The position numbers and the translations under genes are program-made. Below, piece after piece: positions 9,023 through 27,255 of a stretch of 64,000 bases of DNA. Source of the stretch: Apiotrichum sp. Y4204 (taxonomy: Eukaryota; Basidiomycota; Tremellomycetes; Trichosporonales; Trichosporonaceae); contig JAMYHL010000009.1 in NCBI GenBank assembly GCA_025531455.1, positions 62,001 to 126,000 of the forward strand, given 5' to 3'. The notes beneath the pieces were generated by a model. The model was not told the origin of the DNA, searched no databases, and saw nothing but the letters and a program-made list of their open reading frames with translations. Positions within the stretch are counted from its first letter, which is position 1, and each line of letters begins with the position of its first letter.

Positions 9023-10237
9023 TCAGAACTGCGAGATGGCTGCGAGCTTAAAGTCCTTGAAGTAGGCGGTCTCGTCCTTTGGCGGCTTGAACTTGTCTTG
9101 ACTTCCGCCGAAGAAGCTCTGCGCCATGATGCCCTGAAAGCGGACGTTGTCCTGCTGGCGGATCCTGACGCCGGTGAGGAGAATCTTGGATTCGCCATTC
9201 ACAAACAGCTCCTGCTCGCCGTTTTCCTGTCCGACGTCGTTGAGCTTTACGCGCTGCGCGACTTCGACCCATTGGTTCTTCGGGAAAACAAACGCGCCCC
9301 GGTCGACAGAGTAGCCATACTTGTCGTCGCACACCGTCTGGATCGTCCCCGTATTGTGCTTCGGGTCGTCACAGTACGCCTGCTTGCCGCCTGGGAAGTA
9401 GTTGTACAGCTCGCCCTTGCCCTCTGAGCGCCACATGAGGCGGGCCGAGAAACAGTCGTTGCGCTGGTCGCCCCCAGAGCATCCCTTGCCGCCCTCCTTG
9501 GACGTGCCGCCATACACGCCAGGCAGCTTGCCACCCTGGACAAAGTCAAAGTCCTCGGCAAACATCACCTTGTACGTGAACAGGATCTCCTTCATCTGCG
9601 TCGGGTCGAAGGCGTTGTCCGGGCCCTTGGTGTAGAAGTTCAACATGCCCTTGGAAAGCAGGCCCTGCGGGTACACGTGCTTTATCGCGTCGGTTCCGTC
9701 GGGCGCCTTCTCCGTATCAGGAATCTTGCCAAAGTCCTTCACCATGTCCTTTGGCGAGCCGGCCTCCCACTGGGCGAGAAAGTTGTTGGGAAGACTGCCG
9801 CCACCGCCGCCGCCGCCGATGAACCCGCCCGGCATCTGCGGTGCGGGCTGGTTCTGCTTCTGGTTTTGGTTCTGGTTATTCTGCTTCTGGTCGTTATTCT
9901 TGCCCTTGTCACCCTTGTCCTCTTCGCCGTCACCCTTGTCACCGCCCTCCTCCTTGGGAGGGGTGACAGGAGGCGTCGACTGTTGGCTGGCCGGAGGCTG
10001 GGCTGCAGGTTGAGCTGAAGGTTGAGCCTGGACGGGGGGTTGAGCCTGGACTGGAGGCTGGGCGGGAGGTACCGGCTGGGCGACCGCGCTCTGCACGGTC
10101 ACCGGCTGGCTGGGCGGCATGTCGGGGGCCGGGTTGTTGACGTTTACGCTGCCTGCCTTTTTGCGGCAGGAGCGCTTGATCGGGCCGGCGGTGACGGACG
10201 ATGCGGCGAGGAGCGCGACTAGGACGGCGGTGCGCAT
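9023..10237 (-). CDS. secreted polysaccharide lyase, family PL14 type
   Basis: Intronless, 404 aa. Residues 1-17 (MRTAVLVALLAASSVTA) are a clear signal peptide. A long low-complexity linker follows: PVQAQ-type Pro/Gln/Ala repeats, a Gly/Asp/Lys acidic stretch, an Asn/Gln/Lys stretch and a poly-Gly run near residue 145. The catalytic-type domain covers about residues 160-400. It carries EDFDFVQGGKLPGVYGG, GCSGGDQRNDCFSARLMWR, VDRGAFVFPKNQWVEVAQRV and a C-terminal QSFFGGSQDKFKPP, matching the jelly-roll alginate/glucuronan lyases grouped as polysaccharide lyase 14 in fungi. Expected role is secretion and beta-elimination of uronic-acid polysaccharides, either environmental or in its own capsule or wall. 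The substrate is not proven. Family assignment is from remembered motifs. Confidence 0.85.
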   Translation of the reverse strand: MRTAVLVALLAASSVTAGPIKRSCRKKAGSVNVNNPAPDMPPSQPVTVQSAVAQPVPPAQPPVQAQPPVQAQPSAQPAAQPPASQQSTPPVTPPKEEGGDKGDGEEDKGDKGKNNDQKQNNQNQNQKQNQPAPQMPGGFIGGGGGGGSLPNNFLAQWEAGSPKDMVKDFGKIPDTEKAPDGTDAIKHVYPQGLLSKGMLNFYTKGPDNAFDPTQMKEILFTYKVMFAEDFDFVQGGKLPGVYGGTSKEGGKGCSGGDQRNDCFSARLMWRSEGKGELYNYFPGGKQAYCDDPKHNTGTIQTVCDDKYGYSVDRGAFVFPKNQWVEVAQRVKLNDVGQENGEQELFVNGESKILLTGVRIRQQDNVRFQGIMAQSFFGGSQDKFKPPKDETAYFKDFKLAAISQF

Positions 10238-13174: not shown

Positions 13175-15042
13175 CTAGGGCAGCGCCTGGTGGACATACT
13201 TTGTGTTGACGAGGGCGGCTGCCGGGCCGCCGCTGAGGTCAATGTCCTCGAGGGGGATAAACCGCTGGCGCCCGCGGTAGAGCCACCACGCGAGCCAAGC
13301 GGCCGCAATGACGGGTAGGGAGATGTAGGACGCGAGAAAGTCCTTGTAGCGGAAGACGGGGATGAATGCCTTGAAGCCGTTGAAGATGATGATGAGGGAG
13401 AAAAAGACAATCACCGCCCACGCGAGGTATGGCTGGGCCCATGTCCGGAGCGGAAACGCGCGGCGGTCAACGCCCTGGACCTCGCACGCAGCCTTGAAGC
13501 GCACAAAGCAGAAACAGATGCTGACCCACGTGACCATGTTGACGAGGGCGGTGAGGTTTGAGAGCCATTCGAATGCCTGGGCCGCACCATCAGAGAGGGT
13601 GAGGTATGCCAGTGGACCGAATGCTGCGCCGATGCACACGCCGACCCAGGGAACGCCGTGGCGCGTAGTCCAGAGGAAGCACTTGAAACCGCAGTTGTTG
13701 CGGGTCATGCCCATGAGGCAGCGCGCGTGGCCGTACAGACTCTCGTTTCCGGCGGACCACGCCGAGGTGATGACCACGGCGTTGATGATGTGGGGGAGAA
13801 CCTTGACGCCTGCCTTTTTGGCGATGAGGACAAACGGCGAGGAAGCGGCCGTGTTACCCCCGAGGGCATTCGCGTCTAGGAGCTCAGGGTCGTTGTAGCG
13901 GATATTGAGCCCAATGATAATAACCGAGATAATGTAGATTCCCGTGATGCGGTAAAAGACGGTGCGAATGCACATCCGCAGCGTCTTGCGGGGATTGTGC
14001 GCCTCTCCCGCGACGAGCGCCACACTCTCGATACCGGTGAATCCAAAGGCCGCCTTTGTGAGCACGGCCCAGTACCCCAGGAAGCCCGCAAAGCTCGGAG
14101 GCTTGACGCCCAGGTAGGTCGTGTTGAACGGCGCCTCGCGCCAGTGCTTGCCGCCAGTAAACACCTTATGAGTCGGGATACCGCCGAGATTCGCGATCAG
14201 GCCGAAGATGATCAGTCCGATAAGAGTCGTAAGTTTTAGGACGCCCATCACAAACTCGACTTCGCCATACCACCGCACGCTGATGAGGTTGCAGCCAAGA
14301 GTAATGAACAGGAAGATGGTGATGTATATGGCCGCATGCTTGGTGTTGTCGTCCCAGTAGCCGATAAGGAGCGCGACAGCTGAAAGCTCGGAGGGGACGG
14401 AGAGGCCGACCTTGAGCGCATACGAGAGGCCCATCATGAATCCAAAGCTCTCGTTGACGTACTTGGCGCCCATCTCAACGAAGCCTGGCGTGAACAACTG
14501 TTCCTCGAGAGGAGAGAGACCCACCTCCAATGGTCGGCGCAAAACACATCATCTCACCCTGCCGTCAGTCACTCTGCCGCACCTCCTTTCTCACAAGACA
14601 GTACATCATGCCACCGATGCCCATGCCCATTGTCGTATAGCCCAGAAAGCAGCCTACAGGACCGCCCCAGGCCAGTGCAGATCCCGAGCCGAGGAAAAGT
14701 CCGGTACCGCTGCAATGTCAGTACTCTCTATTCAGCAACACTTACATCGTCCCAGCCAGCGCTATCATACCCGCCACACGAGGCGACTGTTGTCAGCTTG
14801 AAACAACCTCGAGTCATGACGGTGCTTCAAGCCGCCACGTGCCCCGCAACACCGGCGGCGCCACTGGGCGTTGTTATTGCTTGACTTACCAGTGCGCGCT
14901 TCGTGCCGTGGTCGCCCTCATACGTTTCGGCGAGCACCTCGTCATTCTCCGCGAGGTACCGCGCATTATCGTCCGCGACCGAGTGCACGACCGCCACGTC
15001 GTTCAGCGACCCCTTCTCGTCCGAGTAGCCGCGCTTCAGCAT
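13175..15042 (-). CDS. amino acid permease, APC/AAT family
   Basis: Five exons on the minus strand (15042-14890, 14786-14746, 14709-14595, 14558-14525, 14484-13175) encode 550 aa. After an acidic cytosolic N-terminus comes KRALSPRVAGMIALAGTIGT, the typical start of helix 1 in fungal amino acid permeases. The helix 1-3 region continues GLFLGSG, GGPVGCFLGYTTMG and GEMMCFAPTIGGF. Later family marks are GFTGIESVALVAGEAHNPRK, SAWSAGNESLYGHARCLMGM and GVPWVGVC. About 12 helices, plasma membrane proton symport. Specificity is unknown. The four introns are crowded into the first third and are 103, 36, 36 and 40 nt; the 40-nt one was placed because it restores the conserved GGF junction. Confidence 0.9.
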
Positions 15043-17160: not shown

Positions 17161-18211
17161 TGCGAGTGGTAGGGGGAGTGAAAGCGAGAAGGACGAGTTC
17201 CCAGACTATACACTGGTGTATGTTAGTGGTGGCGTGGGTGTCGTGACTGCTACTGCGCATTCCCCGGTCATCCCATCAGTCTGGTCACACGCGTCGCGGG
17301 TCAGCACGTCGAGCACGCCGATGCGCAGAGGAGAGCGCACCGTGTGCAGCGTTAGAGATGGCCCATGACCGGGCGCATTGTTGCGTACTGCGCCCATGTG
17401 TGGCGCCCGTCGCAGTCACAACGCCAAAGGATGAAGTGATACTTACGACTGTGGATGCGACCGTCAACTCTTGCGCGTGGACGTAGCGCGCGTGGGCAGT
17501 AGCTCCGTAAATGTGCAGTCGGTTTCGAGCAACGACGGAGACCGGAGCAGGGGAGCCGGCAGCTGTGAGATTGTAAGAATACCAGGTCTTGCATCTCGTG
17601 GTCGTCATCTCGGTCTCTCTTGGGAGTTTTGTTTGTGCACCGCCTGTGGAGGTTCTTGGCACCCCCCTCTCGGAGCCTCCGGAGATTCCAGCAGCTCTCC
17701 GCATGTCAAAGTCCGGGGACTAGAGCTTCTCTCGGCATATCCAAAGCAGCAGCGGCAGTGCAAGAAATAAGGTTTCTGGATAACACGTTTCTGTGTCATT
17801 CAGTTTCAGGCGTAACGTTGTTTTCCAGGGAGCAACTGTCCGACCTCGATGCGATCTGATCTGATCTCTTTGATCTCTGGATGCGATCCAAAGGTGCAGC
17901 TCGGGAACGATCTAACAGTCATCTATAATTTGTCCCATCTGTAGAGCCTGCTTGTCGTGCATCTTGTGTTGCGCGCTGTATAAACCCCGCTCGGCAATGG
18001 GTGGTTGCAGTCTCGGACTCGGTCGGTTTCTCGGGGAGGCGATGCGCTGGAAAACGTTGAATTGTCAAGTGCCTTTTTTTCTGTTGCAACCAACTTCGTT
18101 ACTCTCTTCTTGTCCATCCTTGACAACGAGGCAGCGACCACTCCATTGCCACTCTCCATCTACTCTATCCAAACGCATGCTTGCCCCTTGTCCTCATCAC
18201 TCTCGAGCACC
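17161..18211. other. divergent intergenic region, 1.05 kb
   Basis: Shared upstream region of the cupin gene (minus) and the mannosyltransferase gene (plus). A TATA box for the latter is at 17979-17985. No gene seen. Confidence 0.6.
17979..17985 (+). promoter_or_regulatory. TATA box for the OCH1-like gene
   Basis: TATAAAC lies 233 nt before the ATG at 18212. It is only about 26 nt before another in-frame ATG at 18005, which argues that 18005 lies at or upstream of the transcription start. Confidence 0.5.
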
Positions 18212-19914
18212 ATGCGCAGCGGATACCAGCTCCTCCCCACCTCGCTGTGGAGTGCCGAACGCGCCTCGGACACACCACCCGCACCGCGCCAGCTGTCGTG
18301 GGCGCCGACACTCTCGATCTCGAAGCGCAGGATGCTCGTCGCCGCCGCCGTCGCGGGCGTGTGCCTCGTCACGGTCGGCTGGGCGCTCTACCCCGGCCCA
18401 CCACCCCCGCCCCCCGAAGTCGTGCCAGAGCCGTACGAGCTTCCCATCGTCCCCGTCTTCACGCCCCTTACGACCGAGCTCCCGGGCAACTTTACGATTG
18501 CGAGCGTGCCCGTCGAAGGAGAGGTGGATGGCACGGGGAGGATACAGATGGACCTCGGCGAGGAGGCGATGGCGCGCTATGATGTGGATGCCCACGAGGG
18601 AGGGGATAAGATGTGAGTCTACTGACTCGCGGTTGGTCGTTGGGCCGTGCACTTGGGCTTCCGTCCCACATCGCCTACTGAGCGGATAACTCTTTGCGCG
18701 TTCATTTACGTGCGGCAGCGCTGACACCAGCTTCTTCAACCGCTTGATTCACTTTGTGGAGGAGTACATGCCGCCAACACTAAAGGACACAATGCTCGAT
18801 TCCATCGCACTACGCCTACCTCCGTCACTACACACTCTCCTCGAGCGCAAAGGGAGCAGCGACCCGGCTCTTCTCAAACCCGCAGTTGAATTTCGCAACA
18901 TCTTCCAGACGGACAAGAACCCGCCCGGCCCGTGGTCCTTTGACTGGGTGCTCATGAACAGCCTCGACCGCTGGGCACTGGACTTTTACGACGACGCCCG
19001 CGCGGAACAGTGGGTCGACACCACGTTTCCCTCGACGGAACCGCGGGGCATCAAGTGGTCGTACCACTCTATGAGGCGCGGCGTGCTCAAGGCCGATTTC
19101 CTGCGCTATCTCCTCCCTCTCGTCGAAGGCGGCGTGTACATTGACACTGATGTACGTTTACGCTCTCAACCAATGCTGACAGCAGACCCGGCCACTGCAG
19201 CCCATCAACGCCTGGGGCACGCACGAGCCCGAGTTTTGGGACATTGGCGGCACCGACGGCGCAGACTGGAAAGACACCCTCCAGCCGCTCCCGGCGATGA
19301 TTGTCGGCATCGAGATAGACATCCACGAGCGCCTCGACTGGGCAAACCCAGACTTCCAGTGGGCCCACCCGCTGGGTATCTGCCAGTGGGCATTTGCGAG
19401 CGCGCCGTACCACCCCATCCTGCAGGAGATCACGCGCCGCGTGGTGAACAGCTCGCACGTCGTGGCGGACACGGGCAAGCAGATGAATGTCCTCCACTGG
19501 ACGGGCCCCGGGGCATTTACGAACGCTGTCATGTCGTGAGTTTGGCGGAGAAGAACATAGCACACAAGAACTGACGGCGAGATATCTCTCTGCTCGGTAC
19601 AACGTGACGTGGAAGCACCTGCGGGGCCGCCGGCGTCCCCTGCGCATCGGCGAGGTCATGGTGCTCCCCGTGACGGGCTTTTCGCCGCTGCCTGGCGGCC
19701 GGGCGGACTTTGGCGCGGAGAAGAGCGACTCGCCGCAGTGCGCGCTCGTCCATATGTGTGAGTACAAAAGGAAACAAGAGGTGAAAAGCTGACAATAGTC
19801 AATGGGAGCTGGAAGAGCGTAGAGGATGGATATGGCGAGGAGGAGCTCAATAGGACGGGAAGTGTGCATACGCAGGGCTTGGCGCGGAGGTTGACGAAGA
19901 GGATATGGGGATAG
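18212..19914 (+). CDS. OCH1-like alpha-1,6-mannosyltransferase (GT32)
   Basis: Five exons (18212-18612, 18719-19151, 19186-19535, 19582-19757, 19799-19914) encode 491 aa. Topology is type II: a short cytosolic tail, one hydrophobic anchor near residues 40-60 (MLVAAAVAGVCLVTVGWALY), a Pro-rich stem, then the lumenal domain. GT32 marks include NIFQTDKNPPGPW, GVLKADFLRYLLPLVEGGVY and the DxD metal/GDP-mannose site YIDTDTRP at the exon 2/3 junction. VLHWTGPGAFT follows, and HMFNGSWK closes the fold. In yeasts this family starts the outer chain of N-glycans in the early Golgi. The ATG at 18212 has a good context (GAGCACCATG), and the TATA position excludes the upstream in-frame ATG. The acceptor of intron 2 is NAGNAG; the downstream AG gives the usual DTDT. 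Confidence 0.9.
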
Positions 19915-20966
19915 ACTGGTCGCCATGTATCACTTAGACTGTATTGCTCGATACGCGATGTAAAGCAACGGCTTATTGGCTTGTATGTGTAGAACAGGCG
20001 GTGACGTCTTGATTTTATCAACATTGGTGCGGGAGCCTGTAGCGGAACGCGTCCCACCTGCGACAGATGGCTTCGGCTTCACTGCTTGACACAGTTACCA
20101 CCGCGGAACGTCGTGACAAGCAAGGCAGTGGCGTTGGGCCAGGCAACCCGAGAGACAGGCAAGCATGTCGTGGTCGCGTGATTCTTCACCTCCTTCACCT
20201 CCCGAGCCAGACCGCGGCGGGAACGACAGTCTCCAGATCTCCAAAGGGCTCCAGGTTCAGGTGGATGAGCACTTGCCGGCGGTTCCCTCAGCCTTGAACA
20301 GTACGATTAAAAGGTAGAGACAGCCGCTCGCCGGGGTCGCCGACTCGCGTCCGTGGATCTGGCAGAATGTGGAAAATGGAGCTCGAGCAAAGTACAGTAC
20401 GCTTGCACAGCGCGGGAATTATGCCGCAGCCAATTCCCCTTGCTCCTCGTTGCCGACGTCCTGCACGACAGGTCGGAGGTGGCCGACCGGCGCCCATGCT
20501 GTATCTCGGTTCATCCACGGCGCCCCTTTCCGAGCTCGACACCGAAACGACAAAACAACAATGCACAATGCCCATGATGCTCATGATGCCAACGATGCCC
20601 ACTCTTCTTGGCAGGCACCCGCCCTGCACTCAGCTGACGATGTGTTTTGTTTCTCGGTGACGATAGCGATAAGGAACTGCCGCGGCGTCCCCGGTTCCCC
20701 GGCCGGTGACTGGATTATACGACGCAAGAACAGGATATACGCTCGCCGTCGCTTTGGATCTCTGCAAGTCGGTGTTTCGCTCGGCATTCATCCCGTCGAG
20801 CACCATAGAACAGCGCCGGGCATATACGCCGAAACGAGTCGGAGGCCGAGCTGCGTACTGAATTGTGCCGAGAGTATGGTCCATGGTCCACGTCCATGAC
20901 GTCCAAGTCCTTGCCCCCACTCTCTCTTCTTCACCCATACTCGTCCTCCACTCGCCAGGATCAGGC
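19915..20966. other. intergenic region, 1.05 kb
   Basis: 3' flank of the mannosyltransferase and upstream region of the LysA gene. I see no gene and no clear TATA box near the LysA start. Confidence 0.55.
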
Positions 20967-22265
20967 ATGACGAACACGACCGCACAGCAAGCAATCCACC
21001 GCCCGGACGGGACACTGCACATTGAGGGTGTGCGCGTGGCGTCTCTCGCAGAAATACACGGTACGCCGCTGTACGTCTACTCGCGGGGCGCGCTCACCGC
21101 CGCGTGGGAAGCGTACGGCGCGGGCATTGCGCGCTCGTCCCGCGCCGCCACCCCCGACAGCGTACAGGTCCATGTGGCAGTGAAAGCGAACAGCAACCTC
21201 GGCGTTTTGGGTGTCTTTGCGCGCCTCGGGGCGGGGTTTGATATCGTTTCCGGCGGCGAACTCACACGGGTCCTTGCCGCGGGGGGGAAGGCGTCAAATG
21301 TCGTATTCTCAGGCGTGGGCAAGACGGCCGACGAGATGCGCGCAGCCCTGGTCGCCGGCGTGAAATGCTTCAATGTCGAGTCTATCCCCGAGCTCGCGCG
21401 GCTCGATGCCGTAGCCTCTGAATTGAACACAAAGGCGCCAGTCGCACTCCGCGTCAACCCCGACGTGGACGCCAACACGCACAGCTACAATACGACCGGC
21501 AAAAAGGGCAACAAATTCGGTATCGCGTACGACGACGCGCGGGCCGCGTACGCTGCCGCCGCGGCGCTCCCCCACCTCGAGGTCTGTGGTGTCGACTGCC
21601 ACATCGGCTCGCAGATTACGGATACCGCGCCGTACCTCTCTGCTCTGGACCGGGTACTCGATCTCGTCGACGCGCTCGAATCCGACGGCATCAGCATCAA
21701 GCATATCGATATCGGCGGCGGGCTGGGTATCGACTATGGCGATGGCGCGGTGCCCCCTCCCACGGCGGAATTCGTGTGCGCGCTGCTCGACCACATTGAT
21801 GCGCGCGCGCCCGAAAAGGAGGTGTGGTTCGAGCCCGGCCGGTCCCTCGTCGGCGCCGCCGGCGTGCTGCTCACCAAAGTAGAGTACCTCAAGCCGGATA
21901 CGGCGGGGGGCAAGAACTTTGCAATTGTCGATGCGGCAATGAACGACCTCGCGCGGCCGGCAATGTACGAGGCGTTCCACCGCGTCGAGGCGGTCGCGCC
22001 GCGCAAAGGCGAGACGAGCGTGTATGATGTCGTCGGGCCCGTGTGCGAGAGTGGTGATTGGCTCGCGAGGGCGCGCGAGCTCAATGTCGAGGTCGGGGAT
22101 CTGCTCGCTATTCGCGATACGGGTGCGTACTCGTTTGTCATGTCGAGTAATTACAATACGCGGCCGCGAGCCGCCGAGGTGCTCGTTGATGGGAAGCAAG
22201 CGCATTTAGTGCGCAGGCGGGAGACGGTGGAGCAGCTCCTTGCGCAGGAGAGCGTCGTCCCGTAG
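20967..22265 (+). CDS. lysA: diaminopimelate decarboxylase (LysA), bacterial type
   Basis: One uninterrupted exon of 432 aa, the normal bacterial length. The enzyme uses pyridoxal phosphate to decarboxylate meso-diaminopimelate to L-lysine, the last step of the bacterial and plant pathway. Landmarks are in order and intact: TPLYVYSRG; the PLP lysine in VHVAVKANSN (Lys73); GGELTRVLAAG; RVNPDVDANTHSYNTTGKKG; CGVDCHIGSQI; HIDIGGGLGIDY; EPGRSLVGAAGVLLT; VGPVCESGDWLA; and GAYSFVMSSNYNTRPRAAEV. The wording resembles beta/gamma-proteobacterial LysA. Neighbouring genes of this length carry four or more introns; this one has none. The ATG at 20967 matches where bacterial homologues start; in-frame ATGs further upstream add unconserved sequence. 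No other lysine-pathway gene is visible nearby. Alternative: a related PLP decarboxylase of altered specificity. Confidence 0.93.
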   Translation: MTNTTAQQAIHRPDGTLHIEGVRVASLAEIHGTPLYVYSRGALTAAWEAYGAGIARSSRAATPDSVQVHVAVKANSNLGVLGVFARLGAGFDIVSGGELTRVLAAGGKASNVVFSGVGKTADEMRAALVAGVKCFNVESIPELARLDAVASELNTKAPVALRVNPDVDANTHSYNTTGKKGNKFGIAYDDARAAYAAAAALPHLEVCGVDCHIGSQITDTAPYLSALDRVLDLVDALESDGISIKHIDIGGGLGIDYGDGAVPPPTAEFVCALLDHIDARAPEKEVWFEPGRSLVGAAGVLLTKVEYLKPDTAGGKNFAIVDAAMNDLARPAMYEAFHRVEAVAPRKGETSVYDVVGPVCESGDWLARARELNVEVGDLLAIRDTGAYSFVMSSNYNTRPRAAEVLVDGKQAHLVRRRETVEQLLAQESVVP

Positions 22266-22400
22266 TTGGGTACACATGCCTTGTAGTAGAGAGCGCTGCA
22301 CGCCGGTCAAAGTAGTCAATATTTCACCGTCGCCCATCGCCACTCAGTCACCACGCTCCACCAGGCCATCATATGGGTTCCTACATCGCGTATAGTACAT

Positions 22401-25400
22401 CTAGGCGTCCACCTCCCAGTCGTCGACCTGCATTGCGATGGCGTGCAGATCAATGAGATATGTGTTGAGCTCGTCCTCGCCCTCTGCGCCGCACTGCAGC
22501 TCCAGCATGGCATTATAGTCTTCAAACGGGAACATGGGCTTGTTGGGCGCAATCCCGCCGAGCATTTTCTGTCGTCAGCGCCAACCAGCTCGATAAATTT
22601 GTACCCACCTTCGGACCCTTCTCATACAAATCCCAAAACTCGGTCGCGCGCATGAGCATTCCCTCGGCGTCGGACTGGATGATGCCCCGCAGCGTCTGCT
22701 GCAGCGAGAGAATGTTGCGGCGGATCTTGCGCACCCCAGGCACGTTTATCTGCTTGATGTCCTGGGCCGCGTTGACAAACAGGTGGTCAATGTGCGTGGC
22801 CAGCCCGCGGAAGAGGTACTGCTTGTCCTCGTTGCGCAAGGTGCGCGACGCAATCGTGTCCATCTCCATGAGCGTCGAGTTGAGGTCGACAATATCGGGA
22901 TCGGGCTCAAATGCCTCGCTCTCGAGTCGCTGGTCGGCCTGGAGTAAGAATGCAAGACGAGCAGGATACTTACCCTTGTCAAAGACGCCCGGAGGTTGCA
23001 CAGCACGCGGCAGCGCACCTCAAGATGCAGCGTGTTGAGCGTCATCTCAATGAGCTGCTCGTACGTGTGGACCAATGCCTCGAAGCTCTCCGACATTGCT
23101 GGTGTCAGAGGCAAGCGAGGCGCCTCTCCTGGTTCAGACACACGGGCCTGGGGGTTGTCGAGCTCCTCCTCATCCGCCAGCTGTTGGAGATCCAACAAGG
23201 CGTTCATAAACCACCGCATGCTGTTGGCAAGATTGGCGAGCGATTCAAACTTGCGCGTCGAGTTGAGCAGCTGCGTGTCACGCGGGTGCTTGCCGTCCAG
23301 CAGTGCGAGCATCATCTTGATCTCCCGCCGTGATGCACGCGCAGCGCTCACATAGTCCTTTGCGGGTACCTTGCGCAGCTTGGCAAGAACAGGCGCGACG
23401 TCCTCACGCTGAGCCCACACAGCAGGCAGTGCGGTTTCGCCGCCACTGGCGAGTGAACCAAGTTCTGGAGTTAGCTTCTGGGTTCGTGCCCACTTTGAAA
23501 AACCCACCCTTGAACCGCGAGTGCAGTTGCTGATAGTACTGCACGACTACGCCGACAACCAGACGGCTGTAGTTTTCCCGGTGGAACGGCGTCTCCTGCA
23601 GCATTATACACAAGCTTTGGATGAGCGCCATGACACGGACACTCGACTTGAGCGGCGGCTTCTCGAGGCCGATGATCGGCCGGTGGTCGAGCTGGAACGC
23701 ATCCGAGCCAGAGACGGCGTGCTGAAATGAAGCGGTAACCTTCTCGTCCAGCTGAGGGAGGAAGACCGACTTGACAAAGTCTTCGAGTCCAGAGCCAAAC
23801 TGCGGCACCTCCTCCTCGAACCCGGGGGGTACGATATGGCTGACGCGGTCGATGAACGCAAGAGTCGGCTCGAAGAGCACAGTGACATTGAACGGATTCG
23901 CAGGTATGAGGGTGCGATACTTGCCCGACGTCGAGTACCGGTCCTCTCCTGATGAGCTTCCGCTGATGACGTTAATACTCTCGCTCGCCTGGAGGTTGAT
24001 CAGGCCCGGCACAGATGCACGCAGTGTTTGCTTGAGCGACTCGTCGAGCTCTTTGATCTCGGAATTGACCACACGGGTGTCAGAGTTGCTAAACTTGAAC
24101 AGTTCCTGAGAGTTAGCAACGCAAAACTTTATTAACTCACTCTCTGCTTGTCGCGGTTCAGACGGCCCTCACGGAGCACCTGGTTGATGCTCGGCAGGGC
24201 ATTCTGCGGCAAGGTCGAGCCTTGAGACTCGTCTCGCAGGTAGCCCTGCAGCAGCGCGCGTACCTCCTGCTGCACAGGGCGCCATACTTCAATCACAGGC
24301 ACATTCAGATTCAAATCAGATTTCGTCATGTCCTTAAAGTCTCGTCGTGACGCGATCCAGCGCGACACTTCGTAAACGGCTCGGTGGCCCTCCATGACGG
24401 CGGCGAGCTTGGAGAAGAGGGTCCAGAACAGATCGCGCAGCACCATGGCGTGTCTGGGTGGTCCGCCACCGTCGAGGGACAACACGACACGCAGAGTGTC
24501 GTTGTCGAACAGCGGCATGCTCTCGAGGTCATGTTTTTCGACAAGAAGCACCTGCTGGGGACGCACAACGGTGAGCGCACTCAACTCTTCCGCTCGCTGG
24601 TCAGCGCGGTCGTCAACCTCTTCCATAGTTCCCTCAATCAGAGTGTGGATCTCTGACGGGACGCGCTGGACGAGAGTGTCCAGCGCCTGACCTAGTCGTC
24701 CAAGCGCGGCCAGCGCTTCCAGCAAGCTCTCCATGTAGGCAAACGAGTCGGTTGCCTCAGAGTCAATCCCCGCGAGGGAATTGATCGAAGTGATCGAGGT
24801 GGTGTTCCGCAGCGCGGCCGAGCTCCGCGCCGGTCGCCGAACAGTGAGCTCGTCGAGTATCGGCTCCTGGTTGGGTTTGATTGCAAGGTGGGAGAGATAC
24901 TGGGAGAAGCGCGAGGACTCGTCGCCCATTGCCGCATCCTTCAGTTCAGGACTCTCAATCACAGGCACTGTTGTCAGCGGGTCTCCACAACAGATACCCA
25001 CATGTGTGTTGCCCCGGGGTGTAGGTGCGCCAGCGCGATTCGTTGTTCATAGTTTTTAGGTAAATGTGGCTGTGAAGCTCCTCGATGAGAATGTCCGCGA
25101 GTGCCGTCTCCTGGGAGAGGAAGTACTGGCGGAGATCGGACATGGCGCCAACCTCGCGCATGTCCTCGCGGTTGATCGCCTTGATGCTCTTGACGAGCAG
25201 GAGGGCGGCTTGGAGGAAGCGCTTTTCAGCAATGTTCTCCTCGAGCTGTTCCGGGACCTGCTTCAACTCGTCGCTGGAGTCAGCCACACTCGTAGCATTA
25301 GACTCACATGACATCCAGAATCTTGAGCATCTCGCGCACCATCCTTTCCCTGTTGCGCACGCTCGCGAGCTCTGCCTTGCCCTTGCCGCTGATGCCCTCG

Positions 25401-26573
25401 CGCGCCTCTTTGAGCGCTTCACGAGAAGACTTGGTCTGCGCCATGGCGCGGTCAAGCGTGGCCATGAACGAGGCGTGGGTGGGGAGACTGGCCGCAAAGG
25501 TCTGGAAGTGGGACTGCACGGCCTTTTGCAGCGATGTCGACAGGGCGCCGTGCACGGCCATGAAGGAGCCGAGATCGGGGTGGGGCGGCATGCCGCGGGT
25601 GGGCTCCTCTGAGAGAAGTGATAGCGCGAGCGAGGAGGGGGAGAACTGTGGTGGTGAGTTTAGCGTCAGCGTCCGCAACTCACGTCGCCCTCGAGCACAA
25701 ACGGCCACTGCTTGTGAATCTTGCGCATAACAGCTTTTACGGTTAGCAACCCGCGAGCCGCGCTTGCTCACCATCAATCTCGGCAAACCTGCCGCCAGTA
25801 GCGCCCGCCCCGCCGACAATCTCATCCCAGCTCTCCTTTGTAGCCTGCGTCTTCCGCCGTGGCGGCCGGCGCGCCCCCTGCTCGGGCTTCTTGGCCGCCA
25901 TGAACGCGTTGACGACATTGCGCGCTGCGTCTCCCGATCCAGCACGTTTCGCTTCGGCCGCAGCGTACGCCGAGTCCTTGCTAAACTGTCGTGCCTGCTC
26001 TCGCTGCTCGCGCGCCTCGTCCCACGGGTCGACGTGCCGCCGCGGCGGCTCCAGCGGAGATGCGAGCGGAGACGCAGGCGGAGAGGGTATCAACGGCGCA
26101 TCCATGTGCATGGGGGAAGCCACCATGTGCATGTCGCCATTTCCCCTCGACGGCCGGCGTGGACCCCCAGACGCGCCATTGCTCCGTGTGCTGAACGCGT
26201 TCGCCGCGCTCGCCTGCAATGGCGGGGCGGAATCCCCCGGAGACCGCCGCTGCGATCGCGCGGGCCGTATCGGCGACCCTGAGGTATTCGATCCGCCAGA
26301 AGTGTTGAGCGATACGGCTAGACTGGGCGGCGCGCCGAGAGAAGTGTCGCCATACCGTGCGCCAGCTGCGCCGACACCGGCGCGGTTCTCGCCGCCAAGG
26401 GATCCCAGCGAGCTCGAGTCGTACGCGCCGCCGCCGAAGCTTGATGTCGGCAGGAGGGAGGGGTATGGGCCGCCGTTGCTCGAGCTTGGGAGTGAAATGT
26501 GTTGCGATGGCGGGGTGTTGTACGGTCTCGGCTTGGAGATGTTGTAGCGCGACGATGGGGCGTTGCGCGACAT
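22401..26573 (-). CDS. SEC8: exocyst complex component SEC8
   Basis: Nine exons (26573-25772, 25733-25684, 25645-25308, 25273-25002, 24967-24141, 24105-23508, 23464-22974, 22938-22609, 22568-22401) encode 1291 aa with introns of 34-44 nt. The first 260 residues are Ser/Pro-rich and disordered, as in many fungal SEC8 proteins. The conserved Sec8 N-domain begins near AVMRKIHKQWPFVLEGDF and includes KQVPEQLEENIAEKRFLQAA, SDLRQYFLSQETALADILIE and ELHSHIYLK. The C-terminal region has THIDHLFVNAAQDIKQINVP, GVRKIRRNILSLQQTL and ATEFWDLYEKGPK. SEC8 is a subunit of the octameric tether that docks secretory vesicles at the plasma membrane. It converges with LysA, only 135 nt between the stops. It diverges from NDUFA8. 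Confidence 0.95.
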
Positions 26574-27255
26574 TGTGAACGGGGCGAACGGGGCAACGTC
26601 GCCGGACCGCGAAAGAGAATGGCGACGGAGGCGGCGATGGCGATGGAGAGGTGAGTAAGGGTGAGTGTGGGTCGAGTGACAAAGATGAGAGAGTATGTGT
26701 GTGTCTTCCCTCCGATGTCGGGGGTTGAGGCGAGTTGACTGTGTCACACGTCGTCTGGAGGGGGGGAGGCAAAGGGAAAGGGAAGGCGGTCGATGCGCGC
26801 AAATGTCCGTGTCAACGATCAACGACAGACAGACAGATCCGCGCGATCCGCGCGCCACCCAACAACGTACACACGGAATGGCATCAGCACCATCAGCACC
26901 ATCAGCACCATCAGCAACACACAGATCCGCGCGCGATGACGTCCACGCAGAAAACACGAGGCAGAACAGCCAGAGTGGGCCCCGGATCATCCCAGATGCC
27001 ACATGCCGAATTTGCCTCTACGGTGAGGTCGGATATTTCGGAGTTAGCCACGTGGTGTTCTACCGGGCCCATGGGCCCAGTTGCTCCCGCCCCCCCGCGT
27101 CTTCAGGCTCTCTCCAACCAGGTGGCAGCCATCGCTCAGCGCCAGGGATGTTGTAATGCAGCCTCGACTTCGGACGGGTTCACCATCAAACAGGCCGTTG
27201 ACACCACCACTCCCCTCCCTCTCGTCACTCTCTCTCCCATCTCCTCCTGCCCGCC
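26574..27255. other. divergent promoter region of SEC8 and NDUFA8
   Basis: 682 nt between two divergently transcribed housekeeping genes. It contains a 9-nt tandem repeat at 26882-26919. No gene seen. Confidence 0.6.
26882..26919. repeat. 9-nt tandem repeat (CACCATCAG)
   Basis: CATCAG followed by three CACCATCAG units and a CAACAC end, in the SEC8/NDUFA8 divergent promoter. Confidence 0.85.

Follow-up and report, generated by a model that had tools for sequence, protein, structure and literature searches.

Fungi are held to make lysine through the alpha-aminoadipate route, and diaminopimelate (DAP) is taken to mark bacteria. Bacterial-type DAP genes have been described in oomycetes (PMC2705460) and in choanoflagellates; in the latter, the authors' filter retained dapF and excluded lysAC (PMC7971027). 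Closer to the present case are lysA of the whitefly Bemisia tabaci, a late DAP-pathway gene passed from bacteria to a eukaryote (PMC8659303), and DapE of higher fungi such as Valsa mali, a DAP-pathway gene gained by fungi that keep the alpha-aminoadipate route, for which the authors propose the use of intermediates from bacteria (PMC5025739). Here, we analyzed a 64,000-nucleotide stretch of the genome of the yeast Apiotrichum sp. Y4204 (contig JAMYHL010000009.1, positions 62,001 to 126,000; hereafter the window), which carries an intronless gene for a bacterial-type diaminopimelate decarboxylase (DAPDC), LysA.

Compared with LysA of Burkholderiaceae (NCBIfam TIGR01048), the window protein is alike in family, length and fold, in the lysine that binds pyridoxal phosphate (PLP), and in the two arginines and one glutamate of the distal substrate site. 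It differs in a seven-residue insert at residues 56-62, in an active-site lid that reads NTTGK, and in being encoded in the nucleus of a fungus whose genome gave no dapB or dapF match. In the whitefly, symbionts supply most of the route (PMC8659303), whereas no partner was seen in the yeast and host alpha-aminoadipate genes are present. Relative to DapE of Valsa mali (PMC5025739), both the enzyme and the lineage are different, and LysA alone yields lysine from DAP in one step. We propose that the gene encodes a lone acquired LysA of Burkholderiaceae origin, under selection, that turns scavenged meso-DAP into lysine, a reading to which we assign a probability of roughly 63%. An acquired eukaryotic lysA is already known from whiteflies; what sets the present case apart is a Burkholderiaceae-origin LysA homologue with an altered lid, alone in a yeast. 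Our literature search, whose coverage leaves out most subscription journals, showed no report of LysA in Trichosporonales among the papers listed.

A LysA-family decarboxylase encoded in a yeast genome

The reading frame runs on the forward strand from an ATG at 20967 to a stop codon ending at 22265 and encodes 432 amino acids without introns, while the mechanical open reading frame (ORF) starts upstream at a GTG (20865). Its product scored 495.4 bits against TIGR01048 (equivalog cut-off 297.9), has the DAPDC fold, and contains AVKANSN, HIDIGGGLGIDY, EPGRS, CESGD and SNYN. An initial annotation made from the letters had described this frame and these motifs, and our results agree with it. Its broader statement that every active-site motif is intact held for the motifs it listed, but not for lid residues 173-179, which it did not list and which are altered.

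Other decarboxylase families were considerably more distant. The window protein reached 178.2 bits against the D-ornithine/D-lysine decarboxylase model NF052544, below its cut-off of 700, and shares 24-27% identity with the D-ornithine/D-lysine decarboxylase DokD. Eukaryotic ornithine decarboxylases showed 22-26% identity in structure alignments and at most 72 bits by sequence. An origin in this old eukaryotic clade, which the initial annotation had named as an outcome that would speak against it, was rejected. The assembly searched (48.9 Mb in 182 contigs, the window lying in contig C172) holds a second lysA copy on contig C2, whose protein is 96% identical to that of the window, and two other weak matches at 27-28% identity.

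We compared the protein with 284 other LysA rows (128 bacterial genome loci and 156 database proteins) and with 11 rows of its own clade; two of 50 added loci (L138 and L139) were dropped from this alignment. The 11 rows comprise a fungal clade of six (the two copies of the window genome, three named Cutaneotrichosporon proteins and P0003) and the sister rows P0005-P0008 and P0062. Lys73, His212, Ser215, Glu289, Arg292, Arg330, Tyr334, Cys360, Glu361, Tyr388 and Tyr396 were invariant in 284/284 other rows and 11/11 clade rows, and the first four are the PLP set of fold-type III decarboxylases. When roles are mapped by motif from PMC8277567, the distal DAP site is complete, with Arg292 and Arg330 for the carboxylate and Glu361 for the amino group. 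The window product is a fold-type III PLP decarboxylase of the LysA family, which probably acts as a dimer in the cytosol. Its features are as follows, with TmDAPDC as the reference structure (PMC8277567).

20967..22265, + strand: LysA-like ORF, bacterial-type diaminopimelate decarboxylase, 432 aa, intronless.
21132..21152, + strand: lineage insert before the PLP-lysine motif, residues 56-62, seven residues in the window (motif spacing and alignment).
21183..21185, + strand: Lys73, PLP Schiff-base lysine in AVKANSN (Lys in 284/284 and 11/11 rows).
21477..21521, + strand: active-site lid loop, residues 171-185 (THSYNTTGKKGNKFG), usual bacterial form THPYISTGLK..KFG (row comparison; lid role from PMC8277567).
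21600..21614, + strand: HIGSQ motif, residues 212-216, with His212 and Ser215 kept in all rows (row comparison).
21831..21842, + strand: EPGR, residues 289-292, with Glu289 assigned to the PLP pyridine and Arg292 to the distal carboxylate (analogy with TmDAPDC, PMC8277567; motif mapping).
21954..21968, + strand: Arg330 and Tyr334 in RPAMY, distal-carboxylate side (284/284 and 11/11 rows; Arg role by analogy, PMC8277567).
22044..22049, + strand: Cys360-Glu361 in CESGD, the Glu predicted to bind the distal DAP amino group from the other subunit (analogy, PMC8277567; motif mapping).
22152..22154, + strand: Tyr396 in SNYN, predicted PLP phosphate contact, compare Tyr343 of TmDAPDC (284/284 and 11/11 rows; analogy, PMC8277567).

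An antisense ORF of 298 aa within lysA (21309-22205, minus strand) was rejected as a rival gene; stop codons break it up in the second copy, and it is therefore probably a by-product of GC-rich codons.

Burkholderiaceae origin of the gene

The proteins closest to window LysA were those of Cutaneotrichosporon oleaginosum (76%), C. spelunceum (76%), P0003 (74%) and C. cavernicola (72%), followed by P0005-P0008 at 66-69% and then by Paraburkholderia and others at best 68-70%; identity to the Burkholderiaceae LysA branch (Paraburkholderia, Mycetohabitans) was 65-70%. Orthologues are thus present in three named Cutaneotrichosporon species, and database records already label the C. oleaginosum protein diaminopimelate decarboxylase. 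A profile search placed the same set on top, with no further named fungus among the 120 matches listed of 7999 scored, so lower-similarity homologues in other fungi are possible.

We built a quick-search tree of 100 rows and a careful tree of 72 rows, the latter using only the longest ORF per locus, with 18 of the 50 added loci lost and with L125 and L152, which are the same gene, both included. The six fungal rows were monophyletic (support 99 in the quick tree, 100/100 in the careful tree) and grouped with P0005-P0008 and P0062 (98 and 100/99, respectively). In both trees this 11-row group fell inside the Burkholderia-Paraburkholderia radiation, and a constraint that placed the group outside a cluster of all 59 other ingroup rows was rejected (p-AU 0.024). 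The gene is nested in a bacterial clade, lies in a host chromosome and is common to related hosts. Taken together, the tree, the synteny and the host-like codon usage described below show that an ancestor of Cutaneotrichosporon-like yeasts gained a Burkholderiaceae lysA in its nuclear genome, which bears out the proteobacterial acquisition proposed in the initial annotation and narrows the donor to this family.

The sister rows carry the same insert as the fungal proteins and are identified only by the source code lgn, which we read as Logan assemblies. The spacing from TPLYV to VKANSN was 34-40 in the 11 clade rows compared to 32 in 228/228 measurable others (56/284 were not measurable). Of 398 genomes of the Mycetohabitans family, 392 match P0008, and the highest identity among the matches listed is 74%. 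P0005-P0008 could thus be additional copies from fungi or belong to a donor lineage that has not been sampled.

At the level of genus, the sequences single out no exact donor. The nearest bacteria in the trees were four Mycetohabitans-type rows, one of them named (92/85 in the careful tree, 87 in the quick tree), a placement that is putative and does not reach significance: neither joining the clade to 14 Paraburkholderia sacchari/ferrariae-type rows (p-AU 0.064) nor joining Mycetohabitans to the P. sacchari/ferrariae-type rows (p-AU 0.318) was rejected, and both branches are long. Because Mycetohabitans is an endofungal genus, this branch would suit a symbiont legacy, in which the gene came from endofungal Burkholderiaceae and drew, or still draws, lysine from the partner's DAP. 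The whitefly offers a parallel, since the lysine genes it acquired can rescue mutants of E. coli, and lysA silencing reduces both lysine and symbiont titres (PMC8659303). However, given the non-significant link and the absence of any symbiont DapB or DapF match in the assembly, we give this account little credence.

Purifying selection and host-like codon usage

The C2 copy sits in a 10-kb collinear stretch that aligns with window positions 17239-27227 at 91.9% identity. The two lysA copies differ at 65 nucleotides, 47 of them at third positions, with a nonsynonymous divergence (dN) of 0.019, a synonymous divergence (dS) of 0.155 and dN/dS of 0.125. The five 250-base bins wholly within the lysA ORF had zero gap columns between copies; the SEC8 bins were nearly gap-free, and the bins at 20000-20999, just upstream of lysA, had 8-45 gap columns. 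Between these two copies, lysA has been kept intact under purifying selection, as the initial annotation had supposed. A decaying relic without function could accommodate the altered lid and the loss of Gln216 in P0001-P0004 (the three named Cutaneotrichosporon proteins and P0003). Against it stand the dN/dS value, the lack of indels between copies in the ORF bins, and full length throughout, in the window protein as in the C2 copy and P0001-P0004 (72-96% identical to it), and we regard decay as very improbable.

The codon usage of window lysA correlated more closely with that of four host ORFs (0.90) than with that of Burkholderiaceae lysA (0.80), and this order was reversed for 11/11 bacterial lysA genes tested. 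GC content at third codon positions was 0.78 for window lysA and is not discriminating, because the host (0.73-0.81) and bacterial (0.73-0.88) ranges overlap at this value. Contamination or misassembly, the other outcome that the initial annotation had named as fatal to it, found nothing in its favor; the presence of the gene in two collinear copies and, as orthologues, in three named species, together with codon usage like that of the host and host-type flanking genes, speaks against it and leaves it a negligible probability.

Lysine pathway context and proposed reaction

We searched the genome for named pathway families in six frames with introns ignored, a design in which exon-by-exon scoring lowers scores and short domains may be hidden. 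Models for DapB (DapB_C) and DapF gave zero matches. The dapA model gave eight matches, all below cut-off (best 80.9 vs 206.15 bits), which we read as the general aldolase family, and the dapE model likewise gave eight, all below cut-off (best 52.8 vs 361.8 bits), read as the M20 family. The search for dapA, dapB and dapF that the initial annotation had called for thus turned up no further DAP-pathway gene above cut-off, and a complete DAP pathway in the yeast was rejected. LYS2 and homocitrate synthase each scored above cut-off in two copies; loss of the alpha-aminoadipate route was rejected on these two steps, the ones that the search covered. The acquired LysA would accordingly supplement the host lysine route and not replace it.

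In the absence of a dapB or dapF match, the DAP substrate should come from outside the cell. Together with the retained distal-site Arg, Arg and Glu, this forms the basis for proposing meso-DAP. The yeast would take up meso-DAP from bacterial debris or neighbors, and PLP on Lys73 would form an aldimine with its D-amino group, with Arg292, Arg330 and Glu361 of the partner subunit holding the L-half. The lid would then close, the D-centre would be decarboxylated, and CO2 would leave with release of L-lysine, sparing the alpha-aminoadipate route. Substrate, import and benefit are all predicted here from the conserved residues and the gene content. A fungus whose LysA is under selection could draw lysine straight from bacterial wall material; this has a bearing on nitrogen flow in soil and on DAP as a bacteria-only biomarker.

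An amino-acid permease gene (PF00324, 298 bits) lies at window positions 13178-14542 on the minus strand, about 6 kb from lysA. It is a possible importer, though such genes are common in fungi.

A remodelled lid and possible alternative substrates

Two observations make the use of meso-DAP from peptidoglycan less certain. First, the three peptidoglycan hydrolase models covered by the search, Amidase_2, S66 LD-carboxypeptidase and GH25, gave zero matches. Second, residues 171-180, THPYISTGLK in bacteria, read TH(S/A)YNTTG(K/R)K in six of six fungal-clade rows, and this altered lid lowers our confidence in the substrate. Among the 284 other rows, Pro173, Ile175 and Leu179 each occur at a fraction of 1.0 and Ser176 at 0.982. 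The segment I-S/A-T-G, a shared but non-defining trait of the lid, is N-T-T-G in the window, and the Ile is present in 284/284 other rows and in 5/5 solved DAPDCs among the alignments listed.

Residue 175 aligns, with no length difference, to position 168 of the H. pylori DAPDC chain, which would correspond to Ile148 if the chain carries a 20-residue tag. Mutants of H. pylori DAPDC at Ile148 reportedly lose activity. The PDB entry 3c5q is titled as the I148L mutant; the H. pylori wild type and 3c5q scored 80.1 and 79.2 with Ile in the query, and 50.4 and 50.4 with Asn.

The lid changes are graded across the clade, from ISTGL in P0008 and P0062 through NTTGG in P0005-P0007 to NTTGK in the window copy, possibly a natural series of lid remodelling. 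S160A, N297A, S384D and A385T are also fixed in the six fungal rows, at positions at least 97% conserved in the 284 others, and Q216G occurs only in P0001-P0004, Gln being kept in the window and in 284/284 others. In TmDAPDC, the second monomer contributes the lid (133-152), which shuts over the substrate and takes part in recognition of the reactive D-carboxylate; changing Glu315 of this enzyme switches its substrate (PMC8277567). The remodelled lid suggests a tuning of catalysis or of reactive-centre selectivity, and makes this protein a natural case for testing how the reactive centre is chosen by DAPDC.

The graded series and the TmDAPDC precedents, together with the fixation of P173S/A, I175N, S176T and L179K/R alongside the four changes outside the lid, lend weight to the chief rival explanation, a re-purposed enzyme whose lid was remodelled after transfer and whose main substrate is another D-amino acid or a DAP analogue. 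Candidates are another DAP stereoisomer, lanthionine, D-lysine and D-ornithine, with roles such as nitrogen use or detoxification. On the other hand, the distal-site Arg292, Arg330 and Glu361 are unchanged in 11/11 rows, and other DAPDC structures share some of the lid changes (Brucella with Ala at 173 and Lys at 179, Aquifex with Ala at 176). We consider re-purposing possible but on balance unlikely, and continue to favor meso-DAP as the substrate. A more far-reaching scenario appears improbable, namely that the yeasts acquired lysA from an endofungal symbiont of the Burkholderiaceae, which they later lost or had never retained, rebuilt the lid and now eat DAP or a similar D-amino acid.

Neighboring genes and the paired genome

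The initial annotation had placed the gene between a mannosyltransferase and SEC8 in a fungal chromosome, and we recovered a glycosyltransferase upstream and SEC8 downstream:

18690..19157, + strand: exon piece of the upstream glycosyltransferase, host gene (PF04488, DXD sugar-binding type, 28.3 bits, cut-off 23).
23404..24072, - strand: exon piece of SEC8, convergent downstream host gene (PF20652 Sec8_C, 44.1 bits in 23407-24072).

The piece at 22525-23001 beside SEC8 had no Pfam match. A nearby ORF of 933 aa encodes an ArAE-type transporter, whose named matches, among 25, were from Cutaneotrichosporon, Vanrija, Cryptotrichosporon, Kwoniella, Tremella and one agaric, the best being C. oleaginosum (51%). 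The neighboring genes suggest a tremellomycete host, probably one of the Trichosporonales in or near Cutaneotrichosporon.

Paired copies recurred: the region exists in two collinear versions with about 92% identity, and pairs were also seen for LYS2, homocitrate synthase and further families that were searched. A genome with two diverged copies points to a hybrid or a diverged diploid, and hybrid genomes are known in Trichosporonaceae (PMC7026411; PMC12820176). The window also contains an intronless ORF of 404 aa with a Polysaccharide lyase 14 domain (238 bits) at 9026-10237 on the minus strand.
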